From Streptomyces sp. KMM 9044 (GTDB lineage: Bacteria; Actinomycetota; Actinomycetes; Streptomycetales; Streptomycetaceae), in contig NZ_CP113910.1 in NCBI RefSeq assembly GCF_024701375.2, positions 4,216,001-4,280,000 of the forward strand: a DNA stretch of 64,000 nucleotides, written 5' to 3'. Under the pieces are notes generated by a model. The model searched no databases. It was given only the letters and a program-made list of their open reading frames with translations, and was not told where the DNA came from. Both the position numbers and the translations under genes were made by a program. Each line of letters begins with the position of its first letter. The stretch's first letter is position 1. Below are positions 34,936 to 56,175 of the stretch, piece after piece.

Positions 34936-35468
34936 CGGCCGCCCCGGGGCCGGGCGCGCGATGGTCGCCCGGATCACGCCCCCGGAGCGCGGGACCCGGC
35001 GGGTACCCACCCCGCCACGGCCGCCGCCTGCCGCCCGCGATCCGGGGCGGCAGGCGCATCCCGGAGCGGGAGCGCCCGGCGGTCGTTTCCGGCACAGGCT
35101 CCGGGGGTCTGGGGTCTGGTGGTCCGGAGGTCCGCAAGCACGGACGGGGGCACCGGCGAAGGCGGTCGGCGCCGTGCTCCGGACGTCCCGCCCGTCGGCC
35201 GCTCCGTGTGGCGGGGGACCGCCGTCGCCCGTCGTTGAGGGACTGGGGGACTGTCCGGGCGCCCGTACCTCCGCGTGCGGCGCCGCGAACGGCCGTGCTC
35301 CGACGCTGTCCCGCCACGCGTCGGGACCGGGAGGGTGCCGAGGAGCGGGCTGAGGGGGGAGAGCCGGGGCCGGCCCGCCCGCTGTTTCCGGGCAGGCGGA
35401 CGGGCCGCGACGGCTCCCCCTCCGTGCCGTCGCGGCCCATCCGTTTCCCGTGCTGTGCGGTCCGCCTG
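34936..35468. other. intergenic region between convergent afsK and afsS
   Basis: About 530 bases without a supported gene; open frames on both strands look like GC-driven noise. A GCCCCGGGGC palindrome close to the afsK stop may be part of a terminator. The right end abuts a 141-bp inverted-repeat element. In S. coelicolor another small gene is recalled between afsK and afsS, and I do not find it here. Confidence 0.45.
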
Positions 35469-35609
35469 GACTCTGTTGCTCAATTCGGGGGAGGGTCACG
35501 CACCGCGTCCGAGAGGGGCCGGCCGGGGCCGGACCGCTTCCTCGCGAGGCCCGTTCCCTGCGCCCCGTCGACGGGCCGGCGTCACTCTCCGCAATGGAGC
35601 AGCAGAGTC
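35469..35609 (+). mobile_element. 141-bp inverted-repeat element (MITE-like), copy A, at the afsS stop codon
   Basis: The ends are GACTCTGTTGCTCAATT and, inverted, GACTCTGCTGCTCCATT, about 17 bp with three mismatches. The flanks are near-identical hexamers CGCCTG/CGCCTA, consistent with a 6-bp target duplication; the right hexamer contains the afsS stop codon (TAG read on the minus strand). The interior is nearly identical to copy C near 56.1 kb but in inverted orientation (shared GGGGGAGGGTCACGCACCGC). It has no coding capacity and would need a transposase supplied from elsewhere. Confidence 0.8.
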
Positions 35610-35612
35610 CGC

Positions 35613-35804
35613 CTACCGGGTCGGTCTGAAAGGCTCCGACGTGGCGTGGATGTCCTTGGTCTCCAGCGGCTCGTCCGTGGCGTGGATGTCGCCCTGGGCG
35701 GTGGCGCCGCCGTCCTCACTCTTGCCGTCCTGGGCCTTGGTGCCGAGCGGCTCCGAGGTGGCGTGGATGTCGCCCTGCGGCTTGACGACCTGCTCGTCGC
35801 TCAT
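35613..35804 (-). CDS. afsS: antibiotic regulatory protein AfsS (AfsR2)
   Basis: A 63-residue protein with three copies of D-I-H-A-T-x-E-P (residues 12-19, 39-46, 51-58), the hallmark of AfsS, a small sigma-like effector that stimulates antibiotic gene expression when induced by AfsR in S. coelicolor. AGCAGGAAGAATC precedes the ATG. It lies downstream of afsR on the same strand and 250 bases away, with its own promoter carrying an AfsR-type direct repeat. Its stop codon forms the junction with the MITE-like copy A, so its native terminator may have been displaced. Confidence 0.95.
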   Translation of the reverse strand: MSDEQVVKPQGDIHATSEPLGTKAQDGKSEDGGATAQGDIHATDEPLETKDIHATSEPFRPTR

Positions 35805-35969
35805 GATTCTTCCTGCTCCCCTGTGTGGTGTTCCTGCCGTCCGGCCCGTCCGGGCACTCCCCCGAGGGTGACCGGACGGGCCGTTTCGGCCGCTCGGCCC
35901 TGACGGGCCTGTGCTGTGACCTCTCCTGACGACCCGCCTGCCCCCCGACGCGACGGATCGACTGGGTCC

Positions 35970-36002
35970 ATCGTCCCGCCCGGCGATAAACGAACGATGA
36001 AC
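35970..36002 (-). promoter_or_regulatory. afsS promoter with AfsR (SARP) direct repeats
   Basis: Read on the minus strand, GTTCATC (36002-35996) and GTTTATC (35991-35985) are heptamer direct repeats 11 bases apart, the spacing used by SARP-family activators. They are followed after 9 bases by a -10-like GACGAT (35975-35970), as expected for AfsR recruiting polymerase at a promoter with a poor -35. The gap to the afsS start is about 165 bases. Confidence 0.75.
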
Positions 36003-36053
36003 GCCGCGACGACGGGCATCGACACAGCCCGCGGCCTCCCCGCCGTGCCGCCC

Positions 36054-39000
36054 TCAGGCCGCCTCGACCGGCGTCAGCAGGGCCCGTACCGCTGCCGCCT
36101 CCGGTGACCCGAGCGCCTCGTAGATACGGACCGCCTCCTCCCAGCAGACGCGGGCGCGGCCCGTGTGGCCGACGCCGGTGAGGGCGTGGCCCAGGACGGT
36201 CAGGACGTTGCCGCGCCGCCACTCACCACCGATGCCGCGCAGCACCGTCAGTGCCAGCTCGGCGTTCGCCGCGCCCTGGGCGTACCGCTGCCCGGCGAGG
36301 TCGACCTCCGCCAGGCGGAACAGGGTCATGCCCTCCCACAGCCGCTGCCGGCTGTCGCGGAAGACCTCCAGCGCCTCCAGGAGCCGGTCGGCCGCGTCGA
36401 CGAGCCGGTGGCTCTGGGTGAGGGCCATGCCGAGGGCGTAGCGGCCGTTCGCGCCGCGCAGGGAGTTGCCCATGGCGTCGTAGATCTCCATGCCCTCCTG
36501 GGCGAGCGCCACGGCGCTGTCGGTGCTGCCGGCGGCGAGCCGGACCCGTGAGAGGTTGCAGAGCGCGCTCGCCTCACCGGGGCGGTCGCGCAGCGTCCGG
36601 AAGTGCGCGATGGCGTGGGTCAGATGCTCCTCGCCGGCCTCGGTGCGGCCCTGGTAGAGGGCGATCACTCCGCGGGCGTTGTGGGCCCAGCACACGGGCA
36701 GCAGGTCGTCGGCCCGCCGGGCCAGCCGGACGACCTGATCGGCCTCCTCGTCGGCCAGGTCGAACCGGCCGCCGTCGAGGTGCGCGTGCGCCAGCGTCAT
36801 CAGCGCCCGTGCCTCCACCCGCGCGACACCGGCCTTCCGGGCGGCGTCGAGAAGGGTACGCGCGGTGGCCTCGTACTCCTTGGAGTTGGCCCCCGACTCC
36901 GACAGGTCCACGGCGGCCCACAGCAGGTCGATGCTCCGGCGCAGCGTGTCCGGCAGGTCGGCGCACTGGCGGGCGAAGGACAGCAGGCAGTTCGCCTCGG
37001 TGTAGAGCCAGTCCCGCGCCGCCCTGCGGTCGGGGAAGCGCAGTCCGGGGTGGTCGGTGGCGGCCAGATGGTCGGCCAGCCGGTCCCCCGGCCGCTCGAG
37101 TGCGTACACGCCCGCCGCCGTCGCCAGGTAGAAGTCCAGCAGGCGGGAGAGGGCCGCGGCGCGTTCGCCCGGGGGCCGCTCGTCGCGTTCGGCGCAGGCG
37201 CGCGCGTAGAGGCGGACCAGGTCGTGCAGGCGGTAACGGCCGGGCGCGGCGGACTCCAGCAGGGAGGTGTCCACCAGGGACTCCAGCAGGTCCTCCGTGT
37301 CGTCGGCCGGGAGGTCCAGGACGGCCGCGGCCGCCGCCAGGGAGATGTCGGGGCCGTCGGCCAGGCCGAGCAGGCGGAAGGCGCGGGCCTGGGCGGGCTC
37401 CAGCTGGCCGTAGCCGAGTTCGAAGGTGGCCTTCACCGCGAGGTCGCCCGCCTGCAGTTCGTCCAGGCGGCGGCGCTCGTCGGCGAGCTTGGCCGTCAGC
37501 ACGGACACGGTCCAGGTGCGGCGGGCCGCGAGACGGGAGGCCGCGATGCGGATGGCCAGCGGGAGGAACCCGCACGCCGCGACGACGTCCAGTGCGGCCT
37601 CGCGCTCCGACGCGACCCGCTCCTCGCCCACGACCCTCGTGAACAGGGCCAGCGCCTCGTCCGGGGACATCACGTCCAGGTCGACCAGGTGGGCGCCGGC
37701 CAGGTCCACCATCCGCACCCGGGACGTCACCAGGGCCGCGCAGCCCTCCGTGCCCGGCAGCAGGGGCCGTACCTGGGCCGCGTCGCGCGCGTTGTCCAGC
37801 AGCACCAGCACTCTGCGGCCGTCCAGCGCGGAACGGTACAGCGCCGCCCGCTCCTCCAGCGAGTCCGGCACGGCCGCCTCCGGAGTGCCGAGGGCGCGCA
37901 GGAAGGCGCCGAGGACCGTCTCCGGCTCGGCCGCCCGGGAGCCCGCGCCCTGGAGGTCGACGTACAGCTGGCCGTCGGGGAAGACGGCCCGCGCCTGGTG
38001 GGCGACGTGCACGGCGAGCGTCGTCTTGCCGACGCCGCCTATCCCGGCCAGCGCGGACACCGCCATCACCCGGCCCTCGGCCGAGGCGAGGATCGCGCCG
38101 AGTTCGCGTACGAAGGACGAGCGGCCGGTGAAGTCGGGCACATTAGCGGGGAGTTGTGCGGGACGGACGGGGGAGGCGGCCGGTTCGGGCGGCGCGGGGG
38201 AGGAGGGCTCCGCCAGCTGGGGGTCCGCCCGGAGGATGCGCTGCTGGAGCTCCTGGAGGCCGGGGCGCGGGTCCACGCCCAGCTCGTCGGCGAGCAGCCG
38301 GCGGGTGTCCGCGTACACCGCCAGCGCCTCCGCCTGGCGGCCGCTGCGGTACAGCGCCAGCATCAGCAGCTCGCGCAGGCGTTCGCGCAGCGGGTGCGCC
38401 GCCGTGAGCGCCGTCAGCTCCGAGACGGCCTCCGTGTGGCAGCCCTGCTCCAGGTCCATGTCCAGCCGCGTCTCCGAGAGTTGGAGCCGCCACTCCTCCA
38501 GCCGCACCCGCTGCGCCTGTGCGTACGGGCCCGGTACGCCCGCCAGCGTCTCGCCGTCCCACAGCGCGAGGGCGCGGTCCAGGAGCGTACGGGCCGTGTG
38601 CAGGTCCCCGGCGTTCCTCGCCCGCTCGGCGTCGGCGGCCAGCCCCCGCGCCACCCCGACATCCAGCGCGCCCTCGCCCGTCCCGCGCACCGCGTACCCA
38701 CCGGACTCGCTGACCAGAACGCCGGACCCCAGCGTCTTCCGCAGCCGGGACGCGTACGTACGGACCGCGGCCAGGGCCTGTGAGGGGGGCTTGTCGCCCC
38801 ACAGGGCGTCGATCAGCTCGGCCGCCGTCGCCGTACGTCCGCCGCGGAGCAACAGGGCTGCGAACAGAGCGCGTTGCTGCGGACTGCCGGTGCCGACGGG
38901 CTCCCCGTCACGCCAGGCGCGCACCGGGCCGAGCACGCTGAAGCGCAGCACCGGCGGGGCGGGCGACTCGGGCGGCTCCAGCCGTTCCCGTGACTCCCGT

Positions 39001-39083
39001 GACTCCCGCGACGCCGGCGACGCCGGTGGCTCCGCCGGCGAACCGGGACGCCGCTGCTCCGGTACGCGCGGTGCGCCGTCCAT
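36054..39083 (-). CDS. afsR: global antibiotic regulator AfsR (SARP-NB-ARC-TPR)
   Basis: A 1009-residue activator, normal length for AfsR. The N-terminal SARP region has an OmpR-like winged helix (RFSVLGPVRAWRDGEPV to VRTYASRLRKTLG, about residues 46-125) and a bacterial transcriptional activation domain (to about 285, LADELGVDPRPGLQELQQRIL). Then comes an NB-ARC ATPase with P-loop GIGGVGKTTLAVHVA near residue 347 and VLVLLDNARDAAQVRPLLPG, and C-terminal TPR repeats (about 700-1000). AfsK-type kinases phosphorylate AfsR and raise its DNA-binding and ATPase activity; it then activates afsS. An N-terminal S-R-E-S-R-E-S-R-E run is encoded by a 9-base repeat. AGGGAGACTGC precedes the ATG. Confidence 0.95.
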   Translation of the reverse strand: MDGAPRVPEQRRPGSPAEPPASPASRESRESRERLEPPESPAPPVLRFSVLGPVRAWRDGEPVGTGSPQQRALFAALLLRGGRTATAAELIDALWGDKPPSQALAAVRTYASRLRKTLGSGVLVSESGGYAVRGTGEGALDVGVARGLAADAERARNAGDLHTARTLLDRALALWDGETLAGVPGPYAQAQRVRLEEWRLQLSETRLDMDLEQGCHTEAVSELTALTAAHPLRERLRELLMLALYRSGRQAEALAVYADTRRLLADELGVDPRPGLQELQQRILRADPQLAEPSSPAPPEPAASPVRPAQLPANVPDFTGRSSFVRELGAILASAEGRVMAVSALAGIGGVGKTTLAVHVAHQARAVFPDGQLYVDLQGAGSRAAEPETVLGAFLRALGTPEAAVPDSLEERAALYRSALDGRRVLVLLDNARDAAQVRPLLPGTEGCAALVTSRVRMVDLAGAHLVDLDVMSPDEALALFTRVVGEERVASEREAALDVVAACGFLPLAIRIAASRLAARRTWTVSVLTAKLADERRRLDELQAGDLAVKATFELGYGQLEPAQARAFRLLGLADGPDISLAAAAAVLDLPADDTEDLLESLVDTSLLESAAPGRYRLHDLVRLYARACAERDERPPGERAAALSRLLDFYLATAAGVYALERPGDRLADHLAATDHPGLRFPDRRAARDWLYTEANCLLSFARQCADLPDTLRRSIDLLWAAVDLSESGANSKEYEATARTLLDAARKAGVARVEARALMTLAHAHLDGGRFDLADEEADQVVRLARRADDLLPVCWAHNARGVIALYQGRTEAGEEHLTHAIAHFRTLRDRPGEASALCNLSRVRLAAGSTDSAVALAQEGMEIYDAMGNSLRGANGRYALGMALTQSHRLVDAADRLLEALEVFRDSRQRLWEGMTLFRLAEVDLAGQRYAQGAANAELALTVLRGIGGEWRRGNVLTVLGHALTGVGHTGRARVCWEEAVRIYEALGSPEAAAVRALLTPVEAA

Positions 39084-39574
39084 GCAGTCTCCCTATACAT
39101 CCTCAACAACCACGCCAGTCTGCCTTGTCCGTGACGGATGCGGCAGTCGTGCGAGACGGCGATCACACGGGCGCGCACGGTCCGCGAGTCCCCCCCCCAC
39201 CTTCTGCGCACACGTGCGCACGTGTGCCGCACGGACGGTGCGCCGGGGGCCGGTGACCGCCCTGCGTTTGTGCCCGCCGTGATGGTCCACGGCCCCGGGC
39301 GTCCAGGCCCGCCGTCGTACTTCCGCCGGGGGCTGCCGGCGGCCCGGGTCCGCGAACGCGGCCAGGGCGGGGGCGCGGTGTGGTGTGGTGCGGTGCGGTG
39401 AAGCCCTCGCGCGGTGCGGTGAACTACCTTGCCAGGAAAGGGAATCGGCGGATTCGAGGGGGAGCCTACTGGTCGCCCTTCCTGACGCCGGAGTCGGTTC
39501 CGACTGGTCGGTATGGACAGATGCTCCGGGCCCGGGTATTGATGACTCCGTCGTCCGCGTACGAAAGGCCGCTC
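39084..39574. promoter_or_regulatory. divergent promoter region of afsR and the LLM oxidoreductase, with a 20-bp palindrome
   Basis: No gene here. At 39208-39227 there is a perfect 20-bp palindrome (half-site GCACACGTGC), about 125 bases upstream of the afsR start, a good candidate operator. A run of ten C residues lies just beside it at 39190-39199. The half nearer the LLM gene has AAAGG 7 bases before its ATG. A further AT-richer patch TATACATCC close to the afsR start may include its -10. Confidence 0.5.
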
Positions 39575-40432
39575 ATGCGCATCGCCGTCACGATCTTCCT
39601 CACCGACGAGACGATCACCCCCACCCGGCTCGCCCGTGAGCTGGAACAGCGCGGGTATGCCGGGCTGTACCTGCCCGAGCACACGCACATCCCCGTCGAA
39701 CGGACCACCCCGTACCCGGCGGGCGCCGAGCTGCCCCGGGAGTACACCCGCACCCTGGACCCGTTCGTCGCGCTCGGGCAGGCCGCGGCCGTCACCGGGC
39801 GGATCGGCATCGGCACCGGCATCACGCTCGCCGCGCAGCACGACCCGATCGACCTGGCCAAGCAGATCGCGACCCTCGACCACCTCTCCGACGGCCGGTT
39901 CACCCTCGGAGTCGGCTTCGGCTGGAACGTCGAGGAGGCCGCCGACCACGGCGTGCAGTGGCATACCCGGCGCGATCTGGTCCGGGACCGGATGGGCCTG
40001 ATGCAGGCCCTGTGGTCGGAGGAACCGACCCCGTACGAAGGCGAGTTCGGCAGTGTCCGGGCCAGCTTCGTGTACCCCAAGCCGGTCCAGAAGCCGCGGG
40101 GCCCGGTCGTCGGGCCGCGCACCCTGGTCGGAGGGGCGGCAGGCCCGAAACTGTTCACGCACATCTGCGCGTACGCCGACGGCTGGCTGCCGATCGGCGG
40201 GCGCGGCCTGTCCGAGTCCCTGCCCGCGCTGCGCACCGCCTGGGCCGACGCCGGCCGCGACCCCGGTGCCCTCCAGGTCGTCCCGTACGCGGTCCGGCCC
40301 AGCCCGGGGAAGCTCGCCCACTACGCCGACCTGGGGATCGACGAGGTCGTGGTGCAACTGCCGCCGGAGGAGGAGGCGGGGGTGCTGCGGGCGCTGGACG
40401 CGTACCAGCCGTACGTCACCGACGCCCGATGA
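39575..40432 (+). CDS. LLM-class F420-dependent oxidoreductase
   Basis: A 285-residue luciferase-like TIM-barrel protein of the MSMEG_2256/Rv2161-type group. Conserved segments: MRIAVTIFLTDETITP, GYAGLYLPEHTHIPV, RIGIGTGITLAAQHDPIDLAKQIATLDHLSDGRFTLGVGFGWN and a late GIDEVVVQLPPE. ATG at 39575 follows AAAGGCCGCTC. It is expected to transfer hydride with coenzyme F420; the F420 synthesis gene fbiC lies immediately downstream on the same strand. The substrate is unknown. Confidence 0.9.
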   Translation: MRIAVTIFLTDETITPTRLARELEQRGYAGLYLPEHTHIPVERTTPYPAGAELPREYTRTLDPFVALGQAAAVTGRIGIGTGITLAAQHDPIDLAKQIATLDHLSDGRFTLGVGFGWNVEEAADHGVQWHTRRDLVRDRMGLMQALWSEEPTPYEGEFGSVRASFVYPKPVQKPRGPVVGPRTLVGGAAGPKLFTHICAYADGWLPIGGRGLSESLPALRTAWADAGRDPGALQVVPYAVRPSPGKLAHYADLGIDEVVVQLPPEEEAGVLRALDAYQPYVTDAR

Positions 40433-40541
40433 GGGCGCCCGGTGAGCACCTTCCGGGCACCCCGCCGGGTGCTCACCCGGCACCCCCCGGCCCCCGGACC
40501 GGCCCTCTATGTCCTGATCACCCCGAACGTATCCTCGAGGA

Positions 40542-43133
40542 ATGACGACATCGGCATCCGCGACCTCCGGAACCGGCCCGACCGAGAACTCCATGCGTCG
40601 CGCCCTCAAACGGGCGAGGGACGGGGTGTCCCTCGACGTCGCCGAGGCGGCCGTCCTGCTCCGGGCACGCGGTGAGCAGTTGGAGGACCTGTCCGCCTCG
40701 GCCGCCCGGGTCCGGGACGCGGGCCTCCTGGCCGCGGGCCGGCCCGGAGTGATCACGTACTCGAAGAGCGTCTTCATCCCGCTGACCCGGCTGTGCCGGG
40801 ACAAGTGCCACTACTGCACGTTCGTCACCGTGCCCGGCAGACTGCGCCGCGCCGGGCACGGGATGTTCATGTCGCCGGACGAGGTGCTCGACGTCGCCCG
40901 CAAGGGCGCCGCCGCCGGCTGCAAGGAAGCCCTGATCACCCTCGGCGACAAGCCCGAGGACCGCTGGCCCGAGGCGCGCGAATGGCTCGAGGCGCACGGC
41001 TACGACGACACGATCGCGTACGTCCGCGCCGTCTCCGTGCGCATCCTGGAGGAGACGGGGCTCCTCCCGCACCTCAACCCGGGCGTGCTGACCTGGACCG
41101 ACTTCCAGCGCCTCAAGCCCGTCGCGCCGTCCATGGGCATGATGCTGGAGACCACCGCGACCCGCCTGTGGTCCGAGCCCGGCGGCCCGCACCACGGCTC
41201 CCCGGACAAGGAACCCGCCGTCCGACTGCGCGTCCTGGAGGACGCCGGCCGCTCCTCGGTTCCCTTCACCTCGGGCATCCTCATCGGCATCGGCGAGACG
41301 TACGAGGAGCGCGCCGCGTCCCTCTTCGCGCTGCGGAAGGTCTCCCGGGCCCATCACGGCATCCAGGAACTGATCATCCAGAACTTCCGCGCCAAGCCGG
41401 ACACCGCGATGCGCGGCATGCCGGACGCGGAACTCGACGCCCTGATCGCCGCGGTCGCCGTCGCCCGGCACGTCCTCGGTCCCCGCGCCTGCATCCAGGC
41501 CCCGCCCAACCTGGTCGACTCCGAGTACGAGCGGCTGATCGCCGCAGGCATCGACGACTGGGGTGGCGTCTCCCCGCTCACCATCGACCACGTGAACCCC
41601 GAACGCCCCTGGCCGCAGATCGACGAACTCGCCGAGAGGTCCCGCGCGGCCGGCTTCGAACTGAGGGAACGCCTCTGCGTCTACCCGGAGTTCGTCCGGC
41701 GTGGCGAGCCCTGGCTGGACCCGCGGCTGCGCCCGCACGTGGCGGCGCTCGCCGACCCGGCCACGGGCCTGGCGCGCTCCGGTGCCCTCCCCGAGGGGCT
41801 GCCCTGGCAGGAGCCGGACGAGGCATTCACCGCCACCGGCCGTACCGACCTGCACCGCACCATCGACACCGAGGGCCGCACCGGCGACCGCCGTGACGAC
41901 TTCGACGAGGTGTACGGCGACTGGGGCGCACTGCGCGAGGCCGCCGCCCCCGGCATGCGGCCCGAGCGCATCGGCACCGACGTACGCCAGGCCCTCGCGA
42001 CGGCGGCCGGCGACCCGACCCGGCTCACCGACGACGAGGCCCTCGCCCTGCTGCACGCCGACGGCCCCGCGCTGGACGCCCTGTGCCGGATCGCGGACGA
42101 CGTACGGAAGTCGGCGGTCGGCGACGACGTCACCTACATCGTCACCCGCAACATCAACTTCACCAACGTCTGTTACACGGGCTGTCGTTTCTGCGCCTTC
42201 GCGCAGCGCCGCACGGACGCCGACGCGTACACGCTCTCCCTGGACCAGGTGGCCGACCGTGCCCAACAGGCTTGGGAGGTGGGCGCGGTGGAGGTCTGCA
42301 TGCAGGGCGGCATCCACCCCGACCTGCCCGGCACGGCGTACTTCGACATCGCGAAGGCGGTGAAGGAACGCGTCCCCGGCATGCACGTGCACGCCTTCTC
42401 CCCGATGGAGGTGGTCAACGGCGCCACCCGCACCGGCCTGTCGATCCGCGAATGGCTGACCGCCGCCAAGGAGGCCGGCCTGGACACCGTCCCCGGTACG
42501 GCGGCGGAGATCCTCGACGACGAGGTCCGCTGGATCCTCACCAAGGGCAAGCTGCCGGCGGCCACCTGGACCGAGGTCATCGAAACGGCCCACGACCTGG
42601 GCATCCGTTCCTCGTCCACGATGATGTACGGCCACGTGGACCAGCCCCGCCACTGGCTCGGACACCTGCGCACCCTCGCCGGTATCCAGCAACGTACCGG
42701 CGGCTTCACGGAGTTCGTCACCCTTCCCTTCATCCACACCAACGCCCCCGTCTACCTGGCCGGCATCGCCCGCCCCGGCCCGACGGCCCGCGACAACCGC
42801 GCGGTCACGGCGATGGCCCGTCTCCTCCTCCACCCCCACGTCCCCAACATCCAGACCAGCTGGGTCAAACTGGGCGCGGAGGGTGCGGCGGAGATGCTCC
42901 GTTCCGGCGCCAACGACCTGGGCGGCACGCTGATGGAGGAGACCATCTCCCGCATGGCGGGCTCCTCCTACGGCTCGTACAAGTCGGTCAAGGACCTGAT
43001 CGCGGTGGCGGAGGCGGCGGGCCGCCCGGCCAGGCCCCGCACCACCCTGTACGGAGAGGTCCCGGAGGAACGGCAACGGGCGGCCGAGGCGTCGGACGGC
43101 CACCTGCCGGAACTGCTGCCGGTGCTGGACTGA
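40542..43133 (+). CDS. fbiC: 7,8-didemethyl-8-hydroxy-5-deazariboflavin (FO) synthase FbiC
   Basis: An 863-residue fusion of the two radical-SAM enzymes CofG and CofH, which build the deazaflavin chromophore of F420 from tyrosine and 5-amino-6-ribitylaminouracil. The CofG half carries CRDKCHYC (residues about 86-93) and the CofH half CYTGCRFC (about 545-552), both C-x3-C-x2-C iron-sulfur motifs. Other family segments are [24 protein letters not shown] and [20 protein letters not shown] lies directly before the ATG. It supports the F420-using oxidoreductases annotated at 29.9 and 39.6 kb. Confidence 0.96.
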
Positions 43134-43243
43134 GGGGCCGGGGGAGAGACCGAGCTGGGCAGGCCGGGCAGTAGGATGATCTGACCCTCGGTGTCCCCGA
43201 CGCCAGGGGTCGGAACTCCGCCCGACCTAGGAGATGCGTACCG

Positions 43244-43813
43244 GTGCCTGCCCGTCTTCCTTCGTGGGCCTGGGTGACCGGGCTGACCACGGGGGCGCTA
43301 GCCGTAGTGGCGGTCCTGGGCGTCCAGGCGGACCAGGGGACGAAGCCCACCGCGTCCACGAGCCGCCCGAGCGCGCCGGCGACGGCGGACGCGAAACCGT
43401 CCGCCGAACCGGAGGAGAAGGAGACCGGGGCGGAGGCGGTCCCGGCGGACTCCGGCACCGGTCGCCGTATCGTCTACTCCCTCGACGCGCAGCAGGTGTG
43501 GCTGGTCGACGCCAGCGACGCCCCGCGCCGCTCCTTCGAGGTCTGGCCGGGGACGGTCGACCCCGACCCCGGTACGTACACGATCGGCACCCGCACCGGG
43601 GCCACGACCGGCAGTGACGGTGTGGAGGTCGAGCACGTCATCTACTTCGCCGTGAAGTCCGGCGTCTCCATCGCCTTCTCCCACGCCGTCGACGGCTCCT
43701 CGCCCCCGCCCGCCGAAGGCCGCCAGACCGGCGGTATCCGCGTGGCCAAGGACGACGGCGAGGTCCTGTGGACCTTCGGCACGGCGGGGACGCCGGTGCG
43801 GGTCGTCGAATAA
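43244..43813 (+). CDS. membrane-anchored L,D-transpeptidase-like protein without catalytic cysteine
   Basis: A 189-residue protein with an N-terminal transmembrane/signal segment (WAWVTGLTTGALAVVAVLGV), a T/P/A/E-rich linker, and a beta-rich domain resembling the YkuD fold: RRIVYSLDAQQVWLVDASDA, DPDPGTYTIGTRTG and the end TGGIRVAKDDGEVLWTF followed by GTPVRVVE. Active enzymes have S-H-G-C-(I/V)-R where this has T-G-G-I-R, so the cysteine is missing. GTG at 43244 is preceded by AGGAG at 10 bases. It may be a pseudoenzyme that binds peptidoglycan; this is inferred from motif order. Confidence 0.75.
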   Translation: MPARLPSWAWVTGLTTGALAVVAVLGVQADQGTKPTASTSRPSAPATADAKPSAEPEEKETGAEAVPADSGTGRRIVYSLDAQQVWLVDASDAPRRSFEVWPGTVDPDPGTYTIGTRTGATTGSDGVEVEHVIYFAVKSGVSIAFSHAVDGSSPPPAEGRQTGGIRVAKDDGEVLWTFGTAGTPVRVVE

Positions 43814-43823
43814 CCGTGTGAGG

Positions 43824-44163
43824 TCAGACCGTCTCGGCCACCCCACGTGGATGCCCGGCAGAGAGCAGGCCGATGTCCTCCACGTCGGAGGTCAGGATGG
43901 TCACCCGGCCGGGATGCCGCAGGGCGGTCGCGCAGAGCATGGCGTCGACGGCGTACTTGTGGTCGTGAAGGCCGGCGGCACGCAGCAGAGCGGCGGCGGA
44001 CTGGGCGAGCGCCTGGGCGACCGGTTCCACGCGTACACGTGGGAGCGTCCACCGCGGCGCCGCATCGTTGATCTTCGGATGGACCACCTCGACCAGCACC
44101 ACGGCGGAGGTGATCACGGGCGGATCGGCGTCACGGGCGGCCGACAGCCATGCGTGGACCCCC
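43824..44163 (-). pseudogene. PIN-domain (VapC-like) gene remnant lacking its 5' end
   Basis: The frame VHAWLSAARDADPP onward matches a PIN ribonuclease toxin from its first helix: ITSAVVLVEVVHPKI (first acidic residue region), DHKYAVDAMLCATAL and ILTSDVEDIGLL with the acidic cluster. The initial strand bearing the first catalytic aspartate and a start codon are absent. Upstream, in the opposite direction, the sequence becomes a TPR fragment, so a deletion joined two genes. No antitoxin gene is next to it. Confidence 0.65.
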
Positions 44164-44427
44164 ACTGCGAACGCGGCGACGCCCTCCGTGCCGCCGGCCG
44201 TGACGAGGAGGCCCTCGCCCACCACGGCCAGGCCCTGGTCCTGGCCGTGGACCCCGGGTACGCGAGCAGGGGCGTGGCCCTCTCCCGACTCGGCCGCCAC
44301 GGCCGGGCGCTACGGCCGGGCGCTACGGGACCTGGACCGTGCTCTGGAACTGAGCCCGTCGTACGAGTGGGCGCGGGCGCGGCGTGACGAGGTCCGACGC
44401 CGTCTGGACGAGGCCGGGCGTAGGTGA
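44164..44427 (+). pseudogene. tetratricopeptide-repeat gene fragment, truncated and frameshifted
   Basis: ERGDALRAAGRDEEALAHHGQAL and YASRGVALSRLGRHGRAL form tandem TPR units in one frame, and GRALRDLDRALELSPSYEW continues the TPR in another, ending DEAGRR and TGA. The frame switch occurs at a perfect 13-bp tandem duplication (ACGGCCGGGCGCT at 44299-44311 and 44312-44324). Removing one copy restores the frame. The 5' part is missing at the junction with the PIN remnant. Confidence 0.7.
44299..44324 (+). repeat. 13-bp tandem duplication causing a frameshift
   Basis: Two exact head-to-tail copies of ACGGCCGGGCGCT. The duplication length is not a multiple of three and marks the break in the TPR fragment. 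Confidence 0.9.
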
Positions 44428-44562
44428 CCAGGTGGGGTCGGACCGGTCACTTCGGTCACCGCTCCCATACCTCTCCGTGCCCTGAGCCGATCCTGATCCG
44501 ACCGCCCCTGTTCGCATACAGTGCTTGGCGTCGCACGTACGCACGGTGTCCGGGAGGTCTGG

Positions 44563-45699: not shown

Positions 45700-45742
45700 C
45701 GCCCATGACTTCCCGGACGCCCGTGGCCGGTGGCGGGCGGTC

Positions 45743-47311: not shown

Positions 47312-47666
47312 GTCCCCCCTTCCAGGGTCCGCCTTGTGAACTCCGCTCAGCTGGTTGACACTTCGCCCGAGCGGGGTAGGTCTGCGGTGGGTCCGAGGTG
47401 CTTGTGCGGCAGGGCGCGAAGTGCCCGCTCATCGTGAATGTACAGATGTGGGCATGACAATGATGGGGAGGGTCAAGAGCGCGCAAAAATGTTCACGCTG
47501 ATGACCGGTGTTCATGATGTTGAATGCCCGAGTGGGGTGGAGATCGCTGTGTCCGGCGCGTGAGCGCACCCGCGCAGACGAGCCCCGTCACGTCCGGTGC
47601 GGCGGCACGGTGTCCACCGGATCCGGTAAGGCGCCGGTCGGTCCTCGGACCCGCTGCGTCAGCCGG
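47312..47666. other. intergenic region, symporter promoter side
   Basis: No gene is supported. The minus strand contains TTGACC (around 47478-47473) that could be a -35 for the symporter, but no well-spaced -10 is found. The stretch also covers the 3' side of the large membrane-protein gene on the left. Confidence 0.35.
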
Positions 47667-49544
47667 TCAGCGCAGTTCCGCCGGGCAGGGCGTGCCCCGC
47701 TGCACGTCGTACGGCGCCGCCAGCCGGTACGTGCCCGGCTCCGGCGCGAGCAGCACGGTCCACTTGTCGCCGTTCTCGTCCTCTTCTGTCTCCATCAGAC
47801 AGCCGTTGAGGTTGTCGTACGTCTTCGGCCGGTCGTCCCCGCCCCCGTCGACGGTGCCGTCGGAACGGCTCCTGGACTCCTCCGTCTCCTGCGGGCCCTC
47901 CAGTTTGTTGCCGTCCGCGTCGACGATGCTCAGCCACGGCGAGTACGGGATGCGCACGACGACCCGGCCCGCCCTCCCGACCCGCATCGTCATCTCGCTC
48001 TGGCTGGCCCGCTCCACGACCGCGTTCGGCTCGGCCAGTGAGGTCGGGTCGTTCACCGCGAACAGCTGCCAGTTGGCGTCGCCCCAGATCTGCTGGAGAT
48101 ACGGCAGCCCCCGCTGCACCAGTTCCCGCTCCCGCTTACTGCCGTCACCGTCCGGCTCGTCCTTCGGCAGCACCACGAAGTGCACCGCCCACCGCTTCAG
48201 CCACTCGTGATAGTTCGCCGAGTTGAGGGTGTCGTCGTAGAAGAGAGGGTTGCGCTCCATGTCGGCCTGCCGGTTCCAGCCCCGCGCCAGGTTGACGTAC
48301 GGCGCGAGCGCCGAGGCCTCGCGGTGCGAACGCGCCGGGACGACCTCCACCCGCCCCTTGTCGGCGCCGACCTCCTGGAGCTCGTTCACCAGCGGCGCGA
48401 GCTCCCGCGCCCAGGACGCGGTCGGCGTCGTGTGCACGACGTCGTCGACCGACTTGAAGCCGATCCATCCGACGAACCCGACGAACGCCACGACGATCGC
48501 GTACCACCTGCGGCTCCGCGGCACGGCGAACGGCAGCGCCGCCACCAGCGCCACCCCGGCGAACAGCATCGCCAGCCGCGTGATGTTGGAACCGATCTGC
48601 GAACTCACCAGCCAGACCAGCACCACGCCCAGCCCGTACACCGCGGCCGTGATCCGGACCGTGATCCACTTCCGGGGCACCAGGACGCACACCAGCACGG
48701 AGAAGACCAGGGGCAGGACGACCGAACCGAACCCCATCGGCTGCGTCCCCGAGAACGGGAACAGCCAGGCCGACACCGCCACCACCGCGGTCGGCCCCAG
48801 CCCCAGCGCCCACGCCCCCGGCCGCCGTTTCTGCAGGAACAGCGCCACCGCCACCAGCCCCACGAACAGGCCCGCGACCGGCGAGGACATCGTGGCCAGC
48901 GCCGCCAGCGGCGCCGCGCACAGGGCCTTCGCCCAGCGCTTGTAGCGCCAGCGGTACGGCCAGCAGAACACGACGGCGACCGCGGCCAGCCCGAACATCA
49001 TGCCCAGCCCGAACGTCACCCGCCCCGAAGCCGCGTTGCCCAGCAGCCCGAACACACCCGCGAGCGCGGCCCACAGCGGGTTGCGCACCGCCCGGCTGCG
49101 GATCAGCAGCATCGTCAGCAGCGCGGCCGACACCGTCCCCGCGAGCATCATCGTCGTCCGCACACCGAGGGCCGACATCAGATACGGCGACACCACGCTG
49201 TACGACACCGCGTGCATCCCGCCGTACCAGGCCATGTTGTACGCGGAGTCGGGGTGCCGGCCGACGAACTCGGCCCAGGCGTCCTGCGCCGCGAGGTCAC
49301 CACCACTGTTCGCGAACGTGAAGAACCAGGCGACGTGCAGCGCACCGGCGAGCGCGGTGACGGACAGCACCGGATACCGCAGCATCCGGGCACGCACGGC
49401 CAGAACGACGGCCTCGGGGCGGGAAGCGCGGGGGGAGACGAGGGCGCCCGGCGGCTGGTCGTCGGCTTCCGGCAGGGGTATTCGCGGGCCGGACTCCGGG
49501 CCCGGACCGGCGTCGTCTGCGTGTGTCGGCTCCGCAGTGGCCAC
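47667..49544 (-). CDS. large integral membrane protein, glycosyltransferase (GT-C)-like topology
   Basis: A 625-residue protein with an N-terminal cytoplasmic D/P-rich stretch of about 50 residues, roughly ten or more predicted membrane helices (e.g. VTALAGALHVAWFFTFAN, AVYGLGVVLVWLVSS, LAMLFAGVALVAALPFAV) and an external C-terminal domain of about 230 residues with WARELAPLVNELQEVGADKG, WNRQADMERNPLFYDD and ANYHEWLKRWAVHFVVLP. The topology resembles GT-C glycosyltransferases or conserved actinobacterial cell-envelope proteins; an early DAWAEF after the first helix is reminiscent of their acidic loop. GTG at 49544 follows GGAGTGCCTTCAG. Enzyme activity is not established. Confidence 0.75.
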   Translation of the reverse strand: MATAEPTHADDAGPGPESGPRIPLPEADDQPPGALVSPRASRPEAVVLAVRARMLRYPVLSVTALAGALHVAWFFTFANSGGDLAAQDAWAEFVGRHPDSAYNMAWYGGMHAVSYSVVSPYLMSALGVRTTMMLAGTVSAALLTMLLIRSRAVRNPLWAALAGVFGLLGNAASGRVTFGLGMMFGLAAVAVVFCWPYRWRYKRWAKALCAAPLAALATMSSPVAGLFVGLVAVALFLQKRRPGAWALGLGPTAVVAVSAWLFPFSGTQPMGFGSVVLPLVFSVLVCVLVPRKWITVRITAAVYGLGVVLVWLVSSQIGSNITRLAMLFAGVALVAALPFAVPRSRRWYAIVVAFVGFVGWIGFKSVDDVVHTTPTASWARELAPLVNELQEVGADKGRVEVVPARSHREASALAPYVNLARGWNRQADMERNPLFYDDTLNSANYHEWLKRWAVHFVVLPKDEPDGDGSKRERELVQRGLPYLQQIWGDANWQLFAVNDPTSLAEPNAVVERASQSEMTMRVGRAGRVVVRIPYSPWLSIVDADGNKLEGPQETEESRSRSDGTVDGGGDDRPKTYDNLNGCLMETEEDENGDKWTVLLAPEPGTYRLAAPYDVQRGTPCPAELR

Positions 49545-49759
49545 CTGAAGGCACTCCCCGTATGGCGTCTTCGTGTTCGCGTCGTCGTAGCGCGTGGTCG
49601 TGGTGCGTGGTGCGTGGTCGTGGTGCGGTCACGGTAGCGGTGCGATCACCGGCGGCCCGCCCGTTTCGCGACGCTAGCACGCACCCCGCCGACCGTCGCC
49701 CGCGGTGGGCACCGGCCGGCGGGATGCGATGCCCGCCGTTCGCCGTCGAGCGTCGACGA

Positions 49760-52354
<2,595 letters not shown>

Positions 52355-52597
52355 CGATGCCTCCTCCATGCGCCGCGCGTCGCGCGTACGCCAACCGAAC
52401 CGTGAACCCGTTCCGCCGCCCGCGACAGCGCTCCGCAGCCCTGTCCGAACCATCTGCCAGTGTCCTGTCTGCGGACTTCCCCCACGCGGTAGACGAGAAC
52501 GACATACCTATCGGTTCCCTTACAAACCAGTCACGTGCTCTCGACAGACCAATGTGAGAGGGGTCACCCTGTCATTCATCCACGCGGGGAGGCATGG

Positions 52598-53359
52598 ATG
52601 GGCAGGAGCCGCAGAACACTTCCGGAAGAGCTTCTGCTGCTGGCGTTGGACCCGACCACGGGTACCACTGCACAGCCGCAGTCGCTCGACCTCGGTCTGG
52701 CCGGAGCACAGCTAGTGGAGCTGGCGCTGGCCGGACGGATAGCCCCAGACGGGGATCGTATCGCCGTGGTGGTACCACGGCCGACTGGAGATCCGACATT
52801 GGACTGCGCGTTGGAGCTGCTGCGAAGGCGCGGCGCTCCGGTCCGGGCGGTCAACTGGATTGGCGGGCCGCGACTGGGGCTCCGCCAGACCTACCTCTCG
52901 TATCTGGAGCGGTGCGGCATGGTGCATGCCGTGGCCGGTCAGATGTGCGGGGTGCTGCCGACGACTCGCTACCAGGCGACGGACACCGAGATCAGCCGGG
53001 AGATCAGGGCCCGGCTGGACTCCGCGATCCGTACCGGCGTGCCACCGGACCCACGGACCGCGGCGCTCGCCGCACTGGCGCATGCCGTGGGCCTCGGCAA
53101 GCACCTGTACCCGGGGAACGAGGGTCGCTCCTCGCGTTCCCGGTTGCGGGACCTGATCCGGCACGACCCGATGGGCGGCCTGGTGGCGCACGCCGTGATG
53201 GACGTGCAGAACGGCGTGGCGGCCCAGCCGCGCCGCAACCCGGCCCCGGCAGGAGGCCGTCAGGCCGCCACCGTCGGCGGCAGGGGCGGACCGGAACCCG
53301 CCCGTGGCGTTCCGGCCCAACCGCGCCACGGATCCATGGCGCGCGCAGTGGCCCACTAG
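52598..53359 (+). CDS. GPP34 (Golgi phosphoprotein 3)-family protein
   Basis: A 253-residue GPP34-domain protein: LPEELLLLALDPTTG at the start, GLAGAQLVELALAGRIAPDGDRI, DCALELLRRRGAPVRAVNWI and ALAALAHAVGLGKHLYP. In Streptomyces these soluble helical proteins are common; eukaryotic relatives bind PI4P and glycosyltransferases, and a lipid- or membrane-associated role is possible. ATG at 52598 follows GGGAGG by 5 bases. The final 40 residues are a P/G/R-rich tail. A 22-bp palindromic terminator follows. Confidence 0.88.
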   Translation: MGRSRRTLPEELLLLALDPTTGTTAQPQSLDLGLAGAQLVELALAGRIAPDGDRIAVVVPRPTGDPTLDCALELLRRRGAPVRAVNWIGGPRLGLRQTYLSYLERCGMVHAVAGQMCGVLPTTRYQATDTEISREIRARLDSAIRTGVPPDPRTAALAALAHAVGLGKHLYPGNEGRSSRSRLRDLIRHDPMGGLVAHAVMDVQNGVAAQPRRNPAPAGGRQAATVGGRGGPEPARGVPAQPRHGSMARAVAH

Positions 53360-53408
53360 GGCCACTGACCGGCCACGGCACCACAGACCCGGTCACGGGA
53401 GCCGCTGT

Positions 53409-53454
53409 CCGAGCGGGGCGGAGAGAGTGCGCGCACTCTCTCCGCCCCGCTCGG
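53409..53454. terminator. 22-bp stem hairpin between GPP34 and the XRE gene
   Basis: Arms beginning CCGAGCGGGGCGGAGAGAG and their exact complement meet with a two-base centre, giving a 46-base palindrome beginning 50 bases after the GPP34 stop. It is a very strong terminator candidate. Confidence 0.88.
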
Positions 53455-53648
53455 CGTGCCGGAAACCCGCCACCGTACCGACTTCGCACGGTTCCGTGCC
53501 GCCGGCGCCCCCGGACCGGGCTGTACCCGCGGGATATCCGCTGTTTCCCAGCGGCAGGAAGCGCCTTGGTGGCAGTCTGCTCAACACCAGATACGCAAAG
53601 TGGCAAGTACGAGTAAGTGCGAGGCACGCAGCCGGAGGTGCACGTCCC

Positions 53649-54506
53649 GTGGCGTCCAACGTCAATCCCACCGTCAGGCGGCGCCGGCTGGGCCAGGAGC
53701 TGCGCAGGCTCCGTGAGCTCAAGGGCATGACGGCGGAGGAGGTGGCGGAGCGCCTGCTGGTGTCGCAGTCGAAGATCAGCCGGCTGGAGAACGGCCGGCG
53801 CAGCATCAGCCAGCGGGACGTCCGCGACCTCTGCGGCGTCTACGAGGTCGAGGACCAGCGGATCGTCGAGTCGCTGATGCAGATGGCCAAGGACTCGCGC
53901 CAGCAGGGCTGGTGGCACGCCTTCGGTGACATCCCGTACAGCGTCTACATCGGTCTGGAGACGGACGCGGAGTCGCTCAGGGTCTACGAACCGCAGATCA
54001 TCACCGGCCTGTTGCAGACCCGCGCGTATGCCGAGGCGATCGTCCGGGGCGGTTCGCCGGAGTCGTCCGAGCAGGACAACGGCAAGCGGGTCGAGGTCCG
54101 CCTGTGCCGGCAGAGCCGCATCACCGCCGGGACGGACCCGCTGCGACTGTGGGTGGTGCTGGACGAGGCGTCGTTGCGCCGGGTCGTCGGAAGCCGACAG
54201 GTCATGCGTGAACAGCTGGAACACGTCATGGAGTTGTCGCAGCAGCCGCACATCACCGTGCAGGTCCTGCCGTTCGAGGTCGGCGCGCACTCCGGCATCA
54301 ACGGCCAGTACTCCATCCTGGAGTTCGCGGACGCGGCCGATTCGAGTGTCGTGTACATCGAGGGCGTGACCAGCGACCTGTACCTGGAGAAGCCGCACGA
54401 CGTGCAGAAGTACACCGTGATGTACGAGCACCTGAGGGCCCAGTCCCTGAACGTGGAGCAGTCCCGTCAGCTGGTCGAGCGGGTTGCGAAGGAGTACGCG
54501 CGCTGA
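53649..54506 (+). CDS. XRE-family regulator with DUF5753 (Scr1-type)
   Basis: A 285-residue regulator. A helix-turn-helix domain (QELRRLRELKGMTAEEVAERL, VSQSKISRLENGRRSI) occupies about residues 10-66, followed by a DUF5753 domain (QIITGLLQTRAYAEAIV, LWVVLDEASLRRVVGS, ITVQVLPFEVGAH). GTG at 53649 follows GGAGGTGCACGTCCC. It is paired with a DUF397 gene downstream. From memory, the S. coelicolor counterpart at this position (Scr1/Scr2, SCO4441/SCO4442) is a strong positive regulator of antibiotic production. The pair may work like a regulator and its antagonist. Confidence 0.9.
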   Translation: MASNVNPTVRRRRLGQELRRLRELKGMTAEEVAERLLVSQSKISRLENGRRSISQRDVRDLCGVYEVEDQRIVESLMQMAKDSRQQGWWHAFGDIPYSVYIGLETDAESLRVYEPQIITGLLQTRAYAEAIVRGGSPESSEQDNGKRVEVRLCRQSRITAGTDPLRLWVVLDEASLRRVVGSRQVMREQLEHVMELSQQPHITVQVLPFEVGAHSGINGQYSILEFADAADSSVVYIEGVTSDLYLEKPHDVQKYTVMYEHLRAQSLNVEQSRQLVERVAKEYAR

Positions 54507-54732
54507 GGTCCCGGCAGGCAAAAGGGCGGAATTGTACACCGCTGACATGCCTGGCTGGAAGTATCTCCTGGAATATGCCCCCGGTCGAGTGAATGGCTGC
54601 TCCGAAAAAGGATGTTGGCGAGTAGCGTCGATCACGCCAACCGTCAGTGAAGGTTGGCGCAATCCGTTCTGCGGGTCCCTGCCGGACGCGCAGTCCGGTG
54701 ACACCGACTCAGCAACCCGCTACGGAGCGAAC

Positions 54733-54924
54733 ATGGCAATTCGTCTGGGCACCACGGAAACGTGGACGACGTCCTCCTACACCAACAACAACGGCGCGTG
54801 CGTGATGGTCAGGTCGACCACCGAGGAGGCACTGGAGCTCGGGGACACCAAGGTCCCCGAGGGGCCGAAGCTGGCCTTCCCCACGGACGCGTGGGGCGCT
54901 TTCGTGGCCTCGGTGAAGGACTGA
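54733..54924 (+). CDS. DUF397 protein (Scr2-type partner of the XRE regulator)
   Basis: A 63-residue DUF397 protein with W-T-T-S-S-Y-T and NNNGACVMV followed by DTKVPEGPKLAF and WGAFVASVKD. ATG at 54733 follows GGAG by 5 bases. It lies about 230 bases after the XRE gene with a separate upstream region that carries CTGGCTGGAAG and CGAGTAGCG stretches, so it may have its own promoter. DUF397 proteins interact with XRE/DUF5753 partners. Confidence 0.92.
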   Translation: MAIRLGTTETWTTSSYTNNNGACVMVRSTTEEALELGDTKVPEGPKLAFPTDAWGAFVASVKD

Positions 54925-55140
54925 GAAGGCCGGACCGCACAGGGACGTACAGCGGGCCGCCAGCAGCCCCGCCCCTACGACGGGACACCTGCCGGCGGCA
55001 TCAGCGCAAGCCCGTCCCAGGACCCCGTCACAAGCCCGGTCCCAGCACGACCGCACGGCTGAGGAGCCCTCTCGACGAGATCGCCGTCCTTGCCGAGAGG
55101 GCTCGGCCCGTGCCCGCGTCCCGCGACCGCGGCTACGCCG
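54925..55140. other. intergenic region
   Basis: No gene. AGAGGGCTC recurs near 55065 and 55095 and might form part of a terminator for the DUF397 transcript (GAGGAGCCCTCTCGACGAG facing CCGAGAGGGCTCGG). Nothing else stands out. Confidence 0.45.
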
Positions 55141-55574
55141 CTACCGCACCGGGAACGCCACGCCGCACACCGGGTCCTCGGCCCCCGCGGCGCCCCAGTC
55201 CGCGAAGTACACCTCCCGGCAGGGCCGTGCGGCCGTCAGCCCCCCGGCCGCCATCCACTGCTCCACGGCCTCGAACGCGGCCAGAATCTGCGGATGAGCC
55301 CCCCGCGCCTTGGTGATCCGGGTGCGGGCCGGCCGCTGGGCCGGCTCCACCCGCACCGCCGTCCCACGGGCCCGCCCCTGCGTATCGGCTCAGGCCCGCG
55401 CCGCCGCCTCGTCGGCGACCGGCACGCCTCGGCGGGACCGGCAGAACCGGTACCCGGTGACCTCGTCGCCCCGCGCCGGAACCAGCAGCCCAGCCGGTCG
55501 TACAACCGCGACGCCTTGGCCGGCAGACGCGCCCGCGCCGCGAACGCGCCGGTGCCGAGCAGTTCCTCGTCCAC
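55141..55574 (-). pseudogene. decayed MerR-family regulator with GyrI-like C-terminus
   Basis: Reading leftwards, MDEELLGTGAFAARARLPAKASRLYDRLG is a MerR helix-turn-helix start, then the frame shifts (LVPARGDEVTGYRF in the next frame), and after a large deletion the end is ITKARGAHPQILAAFEAVEQWM plus EVYFADWG and DPVCGVAFPVR, a typical end of MerR/GyrI effector-binding proteins. About 130 residues of the middle are missing. It is therefore nonfunctional. An intact MerR-type palindrome lies upstream. Confidence 0.72.
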
Positions 55575-55631
55575 CGTGCCGTCCTCCGCCGCCGGGCAGC
55601 CCTTCCGCCCGGCGACACGAACGCTCCCCCC

Positions 55632-55651
55632 TGCCCCAGGGGCAAGGTCAA
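55632..55651 (-). promoter_or_regulatory. surviving MerR-type operator
   Basis: On the minus strand TTGACC (55651-55646) is followed by TGCCCC/GGGGCA (55644-55632), a dyad inside the expected promoter spacer, as in MerR-family self-regulated promoters. It precedes the broken MerR gene. Confidence 0.45.
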
Positions 55652-55719
55652 CACCCCGGCGGACCCGAGGCCACCGTGGACGGGGCCGCTCTCCTCGAGG
55701 GAGCTTTGCCCGGCTAGCT

Positions 55720-55859
55720 GACTCTGCTGCGCAATTACCCGGCGTGATGACGCCGTGCCGATACGGCCTTCAGAGCGCGTCGCAGATGCAGGCAGGCCGG
55801 GCGCGGCCGAGCCCTGAAAGCATGGCACGTGATCGCTCGCCGAATTGAGCAGCAGAGTC
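55720..55859 (+). mobile_element. 140-bp inverted-repeat element (MITE-like), copy B
   Basis: Ends GACTCTGCTGCGCAATT and, inverted, GACTCTGCTGCTCAATT form a 17-bp TIR with one mismatch. The flanks are perfect hexamer duplicates CTAGCT. The termini match copies A and C but the interior differs, so B is a diverged or recombined member. It has no coding capacity. Confidence 0.75.
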
Positions 55860-56032
55860 CTAGCTCCCTCCTCCGCGGGTCACTCTTTTGCACAGCCTCC
55901 GGGCTGGATCACGGTCCTGAAGCGATCGTGCTTCGGCGGGTTCTGCACCGCGGACCGCTGCGCTGATCGGTGGCTGACCAGCTGTGATCAGTTGATCTTC
56001 CCGAACGGGTGACCTGCGGAGGACGGAGCTAG
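55860..56032. mobile_element. 173-bp inverted-repeat element (different family), between copies B and C
   Basis: Left end CTAGCTCCCTCCTCCGC then GGGTCAC; right end, read inverted, CTAGCTCCGTCCTCCGC then AGGTCAC. The 24-bp termini match at 22 positions. It fills exactly the space between the MITE-like copies B and C, and its terminal CTAG motifs coincide with their target duplications. It may be a second MITE family into whose ends B and C inserted. No coding region. Confidence 0.6.
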
Positions 56033-56034
56033 CC

Positions 56035-56175
56035 GACTCTGTTGCTCCATTGCGGAGAGGGACGCCGGCCTGTCGGCGGGGCGCAGGGAACGGGTCTCGC
56101 GAGGAGGCGGTCCGGCCCCGGCGGGCCCCTCTCGGATGCGGTGCGTGACCCTCCCCCGAATCGGGCAGCAGAGTT
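56035..56175 (-). mobile_element. 141-bp inverted-repeat element (MITE-like), copy C, at the glutathione peroxidase stop codon
   Basis: Inverted relative to copy A and nearly identical to it. Ends are GACTCTGTTGCTCCATT and, inverted, AACTCTGCTGCCCGATT. Flanking hexamers CTAGCC/TTAGCC suggest a 6-bp target duplication with one change. The right hexamer contains the stop codon of the minus-strand glutathione peroxidase gene, as copy A does at afsS. Confidence 0.8.

Follow-up and report, generated by a model that had tools for sequence, protein, structure and literature searches.

Miniature inverted-repeat elements of a Streptomyces genome, and the IS1182-type insertion sequences presumed to move them, mostly lie at a fixed distance from a one-sided CAAAG motif

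What decides where a miniature inverted-repeat transposable element (MITE) inserts is a question raised by a 64,000-nucleotide stretch of the Streptomyces sp. KMM 9044 genome (C1:4216001-4280000; genome G000, 7.43 Mb in three contigs). In this stretch, which we call the window, two 141-bp copies of one MITE family, copies A and C, lie at the stop codons of an afsS-like gene and a glutathione peroxidase gene. The initial annotation of this DNA took the stop codon itself for the target: the element would seek gene ends through CTAG or TAG and replace the native 3' untranslated regions (UTRs) without destroying the proteins. We recovered both copies with exactly the ends (35469-35609 and 56035-56175) and the flanking hexamers (CGCCTG/CGCCTA and CTAGCC/TTAGCC) described there, and both neighbouring proteins are indeed left intact. 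The insertion sites across the genome lead to a different answer. From sequence comparison, it is very probable that IS1182-family elements with matching ends supply the transposase that moves these MITEs in trans, that the target is set by a motif on one side only, in the arrangement [N6]-N5-CAAAG/CAAAA, and that the same hexamer can be reused.

That the copies belong to a MITE family with 17-bp inverted ends and 6-bp duplications was borne out genome-wide. With at most one mismatch, the end pattern gave 243 matches in the genome and 0 for a reversed control; with at most three mismatches it gave six matches in the window against 0.10 expected from shuffles. We extracted at least 114 copies at 89 places (65 single copies, 23 pairs and one triple), with 17-bp terminal inverted repeats, no transposase gene and lengths of 131-146 bp, bar one remnant of 80 bp. 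The list was assembled from several listings of ends and may miss a few copies, so its counts are lower bounds, and a split A copy at 5717004 is left out of it. Type A, counted without the remnant, comprises at least 67 copies, 48 of 140-146 bp (A140-146) and 19 of 131 or 137 bp (A131/137), and type B, of 140 bp, at least 46. The outer flanks carry a target duplication that is perfect (6/6) at 66 of the 89 places and 5/6 at 12. Mean distance to the consensus is 4.8% for A140-146, 2.3% for A131/137 and 0.8% for B, and most copies look like the outcome of a burst in this lineage.

When 75 unique targets were aligned, the duplication itself showed a weak consensus and the strong columns, CTTTG and CAAAG, stood outside it. 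The target reads as the 6-bp duplication, five further bases and then CAAAG (or CAAAA), on one side only and at constant spacing. This rule was scored on 84 distinct places, after five repeats of the same flank had been dropped; the total of distinct places ranges from 83 to 86 depending on how repeated flanks were filtered. At least four of the five motif letters were present at 78 of the 84, as CAAAG at 63, CAAAA at 11 and CCAAG, CGAAG, CACAG and GAAAG at one each. Where the duplication was at least 5/6, the rule was kept at 72 of 73 places, the lone exception being copy C of the window, to which we return below. The spacing is equally strict: over 83 places, CAAAR starts five bases past the duplication in 74 cases, and no other offset up to 60 bases has more than two. 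At nine shifted control offsets, 1.2% of the scores reached 4/5 and none reached 5/5.

The pooled logo looked palindromic (CTTTG...CAAAG), but single sites carry one half of it, on either side, and a palindromic target for A and B was rejected. At the 73 A/B places tested, the flanks showed no complementarity of a palindrome or stem-loop kind. Nor do single copies show a clear bias of orientation relative to the motif (type A, 14 minus and 10 plus; type B, 13 plus and 5 minus; A131/137, 11 plus and 3 minus). CAAAG is rare in this genome, at about 0.4 per kb over both strands in the stretches retrieved, and its scarcity therefore limits the places where the elements can land. One hot spot was seen: copies of a repeated sequence, which is probably another insertion sequence (IS), at G000:C1:1418752, 4954723, 6448905 and 6740266 and at C3:99570-101431 were struck at the same AATGCC/CAAAG place, and among them hold A alone, A with B (twice), a rearranged A and, on C3, an IS1182-type IS at which the motif side has been lost.

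A search for an IS sharing the MITE ends, as the initial annotation had suggested, was successful: the genome contains five ISs of the same end type, and CAAAG or CAAAA stands at the right spacing in four of them, three intact and one decayed. Two of the intact elements (L063:5695-7660 and L064:923-2876) have 6-bp duplications and open frames of 647 and 625 amino acids; a third lies at 722227-724047, the decayed copy at 425929-427778 and the fifth on C3. The L064 transposase passes the NCBIfam IS1182 model (NF033551) with 281.2 bits at a cut-off of 270, and also matches the DDE_Tnp_1_6 and DUF772 domains. The first 39 bp of type B are 82% identical to the decayed IS. A run of Ala-Glu repeats, its length varying by copy, was seen in the IS1182-type transposases (L063:5727-7670, L064:955-2832, L141:4665-6413).

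A transposase search at E 1e-60 gave matches in 79 of 392 genomes of the genus, the window's own genome included. In a plasmid collection there were six partial IS matches, all in Streptomyces records, and 0 matches to A, B or family D (see below). We examined 48 IS loci, five from the window's genome, five from named plasmids and the rest from the genus matches. End pairs were obtained for 38; the ten loci that gave none were left out, as was locus L318. Twelve ISs outside the window's genome have GACTC(T/C)G ends: nine carry CAAAG or CAAAA at the exact spacing and a tenth carries it beyond a 7-bp duplication. All six outside ISs with a perfect 6-bp duplication obey the rule, three of them being near-identical copies in one genome. 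Ten further ISs have GATGC ends; nine of these are flanked by palindromic sequence, in which 7-14 of 14 positions are complementary and the duplications vary in length; the IS of G303 is not, and CAAAG was present in none of the ten. In the transposase tree, one branch with support 100/100 joins the 13 CAAAG-type rows and three unclear ones; another branch takes in nine of the ten palindrome-type rows.

The CAAAG rule also accounts for the pairs that share one duplication, since the motif survives insertion on one side and the same hexamer can therefore be used again, giving the arrangement A-N6-B. All 23 pairs consist of one A and one B exactly 6 bp apart. One hexamer recurs to the left, between and to the right, with one or two altered bases in a few pairs, save in those that moved as a unit. 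The latter concern A-GACCTG-B: its outer hexamer at 3551760 is GACCTG as well, whereas at 224917, at 5871552 and in the C3 triple the outer duplications are different ones, because the pair moved as a whole; in the C3 triple the first B stands 10 bp, not 6, from the next copy. The single A-A tandem (5717004-5717448) has its first copy broken by a foreign insert, and the rarity of same-type pairs may reflect loss by recombination. Leaving aside two unit-moved pairs and one duplicate host repeat, 20 pairs are independent. All 17 of the independent pairs of A140-146 with B have B on the side of the motif (two-sided p=1.5e-5), and the lower divergence of B (0.8% against 4.8%) agrees with B as the younger type. 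In a genome contig collection from which close relatives were possibly excluded, the A/B junction pattern had one match, in Rheinheimera; with no element ends nearby it looks like a chance palindrome, and it was rejected as a pair.

We propose that the transposase, or a host protein that serves as its docking point, would read CAAAG on one flank and that the cut would be made at a fixed distance from it. Insertion would leave CAAAG uninterrupted, and the next element would enter the motif-side copy of the hexamer, so that the younger element would come to lie beside CAAAG. We think it likely, moreover, that a branch of IS1182 has ruler-like targeting, in which CAAAG is read outside the insertion point and the element enters exactly 5+6 bp away in either orientation, and that its MITEs stack with the youngest next to the motif, as a stratigraphy of bursts. 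In such a reading, stacking at one site would be possible because the target is neither destroyed nor under target immunity. Closeness to stop codons would be a by-product of where CAAAG happens to lie and of which insertions are tolerated.

Several observations weigh against a one-sided CAAAG target read by IS1182-type movers. The case is built by comparing sequences. Six of the 84 places have no motif, namely copy C and five places with a duplication of 4/6 or worse, which are presumably rearranged. The IS on C3 has an open frame, unmatched flanks and neither motif nor duplication, and two of the 12 outside ISs, those of G130 and of NBC_00984 plasmid 2 (duplication 5/6), disobey the rule. 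Outside the terminal repeats, MITEs and ISs have little in common, save for the 39-bp stretch in type B. Among the pairs, A lies on the motif side in three of three independent A131/137-B pairs, though A131/137 is more diverged than B (2.3% against 0.8%); because A131/137 is the more diverged on average, the idea that the younger element is the nearer one is without independent support for these pairs. Finally, one relative orientation of A and B is found in 16 of the 20 independent pairs (p=0.012), which our model does not explain.

It is possible, though in our view unlikely, that CAAAG is read not by the transposase but by a host DNA-binding protein that recruits it. A motif that stands outside the cut site and on one side is what a recruiting factor would be expected to leave. 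However, the ISs that obey the rule belong to one transposase branch, 63-73% identical to the IS of the window's genome, and occur in several genomes, whereas the sister IS1182 branch of the same genus goes without the motif.

The pairs could also have arisen from a transposase tethered to the ends of a resident copy, as is known for IS30 or IS911, rather than from a surviving CAAAG half-site. Both the exact 6-bp distance in all 23 pairs and the preferred relative orientation of A and B would suit such tethering. Taken alone, though, tethering predicts insertion on both sides equally, and this is at odds with the 17 of 17 A140-146/B pairs in which the less diverged type stands on the motif side; the motif of the pairs, moreover, keeps its standard spacing from the outer duplication. 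We therefore consider tethering quite improbable as the source of the pairs.

Selection might instead have kept the copies at gene ends as conserved terminators or regulatory RNAs. Consistent with this, the copies are predicted to fold as long hairpins, with z between -3.2 and -4.9 in copies A and B and between -1.5 and -1.7 in copy C, there is a modest bias towards 3' flanks, and at least two insertions are common with the sister genome G316. The hairpins, however, follow from the inverted repeats themselves, Rfam gave 0 matches in 35300-56700, and both window sites are empty in G316 despite flanks that are 89-97% identical. At the afsS locus, G316 reads ...GCGGTC-CGCCTA-CCGGG... with no insert and the same TAG stop; at the peroxidase locus the entire block of three elements (B-D-C, see below) is missing, and the sequence reads CCCGG-CTATCC-GAGCG, again with a TAG stop. 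Both genes thus keep native stops in the sister strain, and the window copies are not fixed at orthologous places, though at least two other insertions are shared. An exact pattern matching 80 of the genome's own copies found one element in one (G026) of 149 other genus genomes, a set that did not include G316. We regard a conserved terminator or RNA as very improbable.

G316 has 18 ends of this family. Both ends were found for seven of its elements, and all seven have a duplication of at least 5/6 and a motif score of at least 4/5. Two of these, at L201 and L212, have flanks that match the window's genome at 703 and 863 kb and are old insertions common to both genomes, and the one at L219 looks shared too, by its hexamers; the other four have no known counterpart in the window's genome. 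Because at least two insertions are common to both genomes, some A copies predate their split.

The relation of the copies to genes was assessed with a home-made codon-usage script. It overlooked afsS and placed copy C 3 bp within its gene, and some of its inside-gene calls may be spurious, so the numbers that follow are approximate. At the lowest threshold, called genes contain 29% of the 85 places; the figure is 50% for 103 unoccupied CAAAG+5 places and 71% for random positions. A stop lies no more than 100 bp away at 35 of the 60 intergenic places, compared with 16 of 52 for unoccupied CAAAG+5 places (p=0.004; p=0.003 and 0.03 at two stricter caller thresholds); with a limit of 50 bp the counts are 20 of 60 and 11 of 52 (p=0.20). 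This mild 3'-flank bias may reflect the loss of harmful insertions, for example near promoters.

That the element targets stop codons through CTAG or TAG, and so replaces 3' UTRs, is scarcely credible: both reported copies do carry a stop inside the duplicated hexamer, but CTAG occurs in 2 of 75 unique A/B targets, both at one window locus, the caller (which missed one reported copy's gene and scored the other copy inside its gene) finds no stop within 6 bp of any of the 60 intergenic places, and CAAAG at fixed spacing explains 72 of 73. Stop targeting is refuted as a rule for A and B. With the caller and a hand check combined, the two reported copies are the only ones of 85 places within 6 bp of a stop. 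Nor is the 3' UTR of afsS replaced; it is displaced by 147 bp, because the downstream sequence resumes on the far side of the insert and has a strong predicted hairpin there.

At the afsS locus, copy A (type A, 35469-35609, minus strand, the strand of MITE copies being an arbitrary convention) is flanked on the left by CGCCTG (35463-35468), one base changed from CGCCTA, and on the right by CGCCTA (35610-35615), which is also the hexamer of the empty site in G316. Its anchor is CACAG on the minus strand (35453-35457), with four of the five letters of CAAAG, 5 bp from the duplication. The right duplication includes the TAG stop (35613-35615) of the gene that we take, following the initial annotation, to be afsS (35613-35804, minus strand). 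Its 63-amino-acid product had no Pfam or NCBIfam match, and its stop is native. The earlier statement that the elements end exactly on a stop thus holds for copy C, which abuts the stop of the peroxidase gene (56176-56178), and not for copy A, which lies 3 bp away with the stop inside the duplicated hexamer.

At the peroxidase locus three elements lie side by side. Copy B (type B, 55720-55859, minus strand, 140 bp) has a perfect CTAGCT duplication (55714-55719 and 55860-55865) and is anchored by CTTTG at 55704-55708 on the plus strand, that is, CAAAG on the minus strand. Between it and copy C lies MITE D (55864-56028, 165 bp), of a family unrelated to A and B and with a 4-bp CTAG duplication. 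Copy C (type A, 56035-56175, plus strand) follows; its left duplication CTAGCC (56029-56034) begins with the CTAG that doubles as the right duplication of D, and its right duplication TTAGCC (56176-56181) starts with the complement of the TAA stop of the intact glutathione peroxidase gene (56176-56685, minus strand, Pfam GSHPx), this TTA being one base off the CTA of the other duplication. No motif adjoins copy C, and with D and B removed its CTAGCC would stand 5 bp from the CTTTG at 55704-55708. We infer that this CTTTG earlier served copy C as well and that copy C was parted from it by D and B. In the simplest order, copy C would have entered CTTTG-N5-CTAGCC, then D the CTAG, and then copy B would have come in at the same CTTTG. 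Because of this order, the CTAG noticed in the initial annotation is a feature of one site and of D.

Family D has 25 copies in the genome, of 165 bp (177 bp in two), with inverted ends close to CTCCSTCCTCCGCRGGTCAC, and differs from A and B in both ends and target. CTAG stands on both sides in 19 of the 25, and two tandem D-D pairs each share one CTAG. Excluding the window copy, the CTAG of D is the amber stop of a called gene in 11 of 24 copies, against 18 of 95 CTAGs away from D (odds ratio 3.6, p=0.014), a background drawn from stretches chosen around A/B copies. The amber stop is kept at such insertions because CTAG is duplicated. The CTAG and amber-stop logic proposed earlier fits D, and stands for this family only. 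Targets of the CTAG or YTAR type occur for example in the IS5 family, and D likewise duplicates CTAG and often lands on amber stops; among the end-pattern matches listed, none pointed to an autonomous partner of D.

Most DDE insertion sequences choose their targets loosely or by the bases that they duplicate. Here more than 80 natural insertions reveal an anchor that is sharp, one-sided and external to the duplication, both in MITEs and in their presumed parents in several streptomycetes, and the order of stacking may serve as a relative clock. In the literature searches made we recognised no paper describing a CAAAG-anchored target or the A/B MITE family; palindrome targeting by some IS1182 members and an IS1182-type MITE are already known. 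Two reports describe palindrome or stem-loop targets for some members of the IS1182 family, such as IS1272, which is reported to delete its stem-loop target and to make no duplication (PMC5678879, PMC4923244). The presumed mover resembles these elements in passing the IS1182 model and in having a sister branch in the genus that inserts into palindromes, and a palindromic or stem-loop target does not define the IS1182 family as a whole. In contrast, the CAAAG branch makes a 6-bp duplication with a one-sided CAAAG at 5 bp, and two branches with different targets side by side open the way to tests of how target choice evolves within one transposase family. MITEPye1 of Paracoccus yeei (PMC11578231) is similar in its IS1182-like ends, in being presumably moved by IS1182, in its intergenic position and in its long stem-loop, and has 1-3 copies per chromosome and 4-bp repeats. 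The A/B family differs in having at least 114 extracted copies, 6-bp repeats, stacked pairs and a target motif that is defined. Tn7 at attTn7 likewise inserts at a set distance from a motif that it leaves uninterrupted. Tn7 relies on a targeting protein dedicated to this task, has one main site and shows target immunity, whereas the elements here are ISs with one transposase frame and a pentamer that offers many sites and is reused.

Elements of 120 bp with similar ends were seen in G316 L199 and L208, G142 L204 and G026 L143; all score at least 4/5 at the CAAAG+5 position, those at L204 and L143 have a poor duplication, and the G316 L208 element lies in flanks that match the window at about 6.2-6.8 kb. 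One and the same B insertion, flanks included, occurs at C3:3912 and C3:104810, near both ends of C3, and at C1:7313606, near the right end of C1, which suggests that C1 and C3 are linear replicons sharing terminal inverted repeats. Within the split A copy at L121 (G000:C1:5717004-5717299) sits a foreign insert of some 150 bp; its inverted ends resemble GGGTCTTCGAA, it has an apparent 6-bp duplication, GATGGT, and it perhaps represents a further MITE family.

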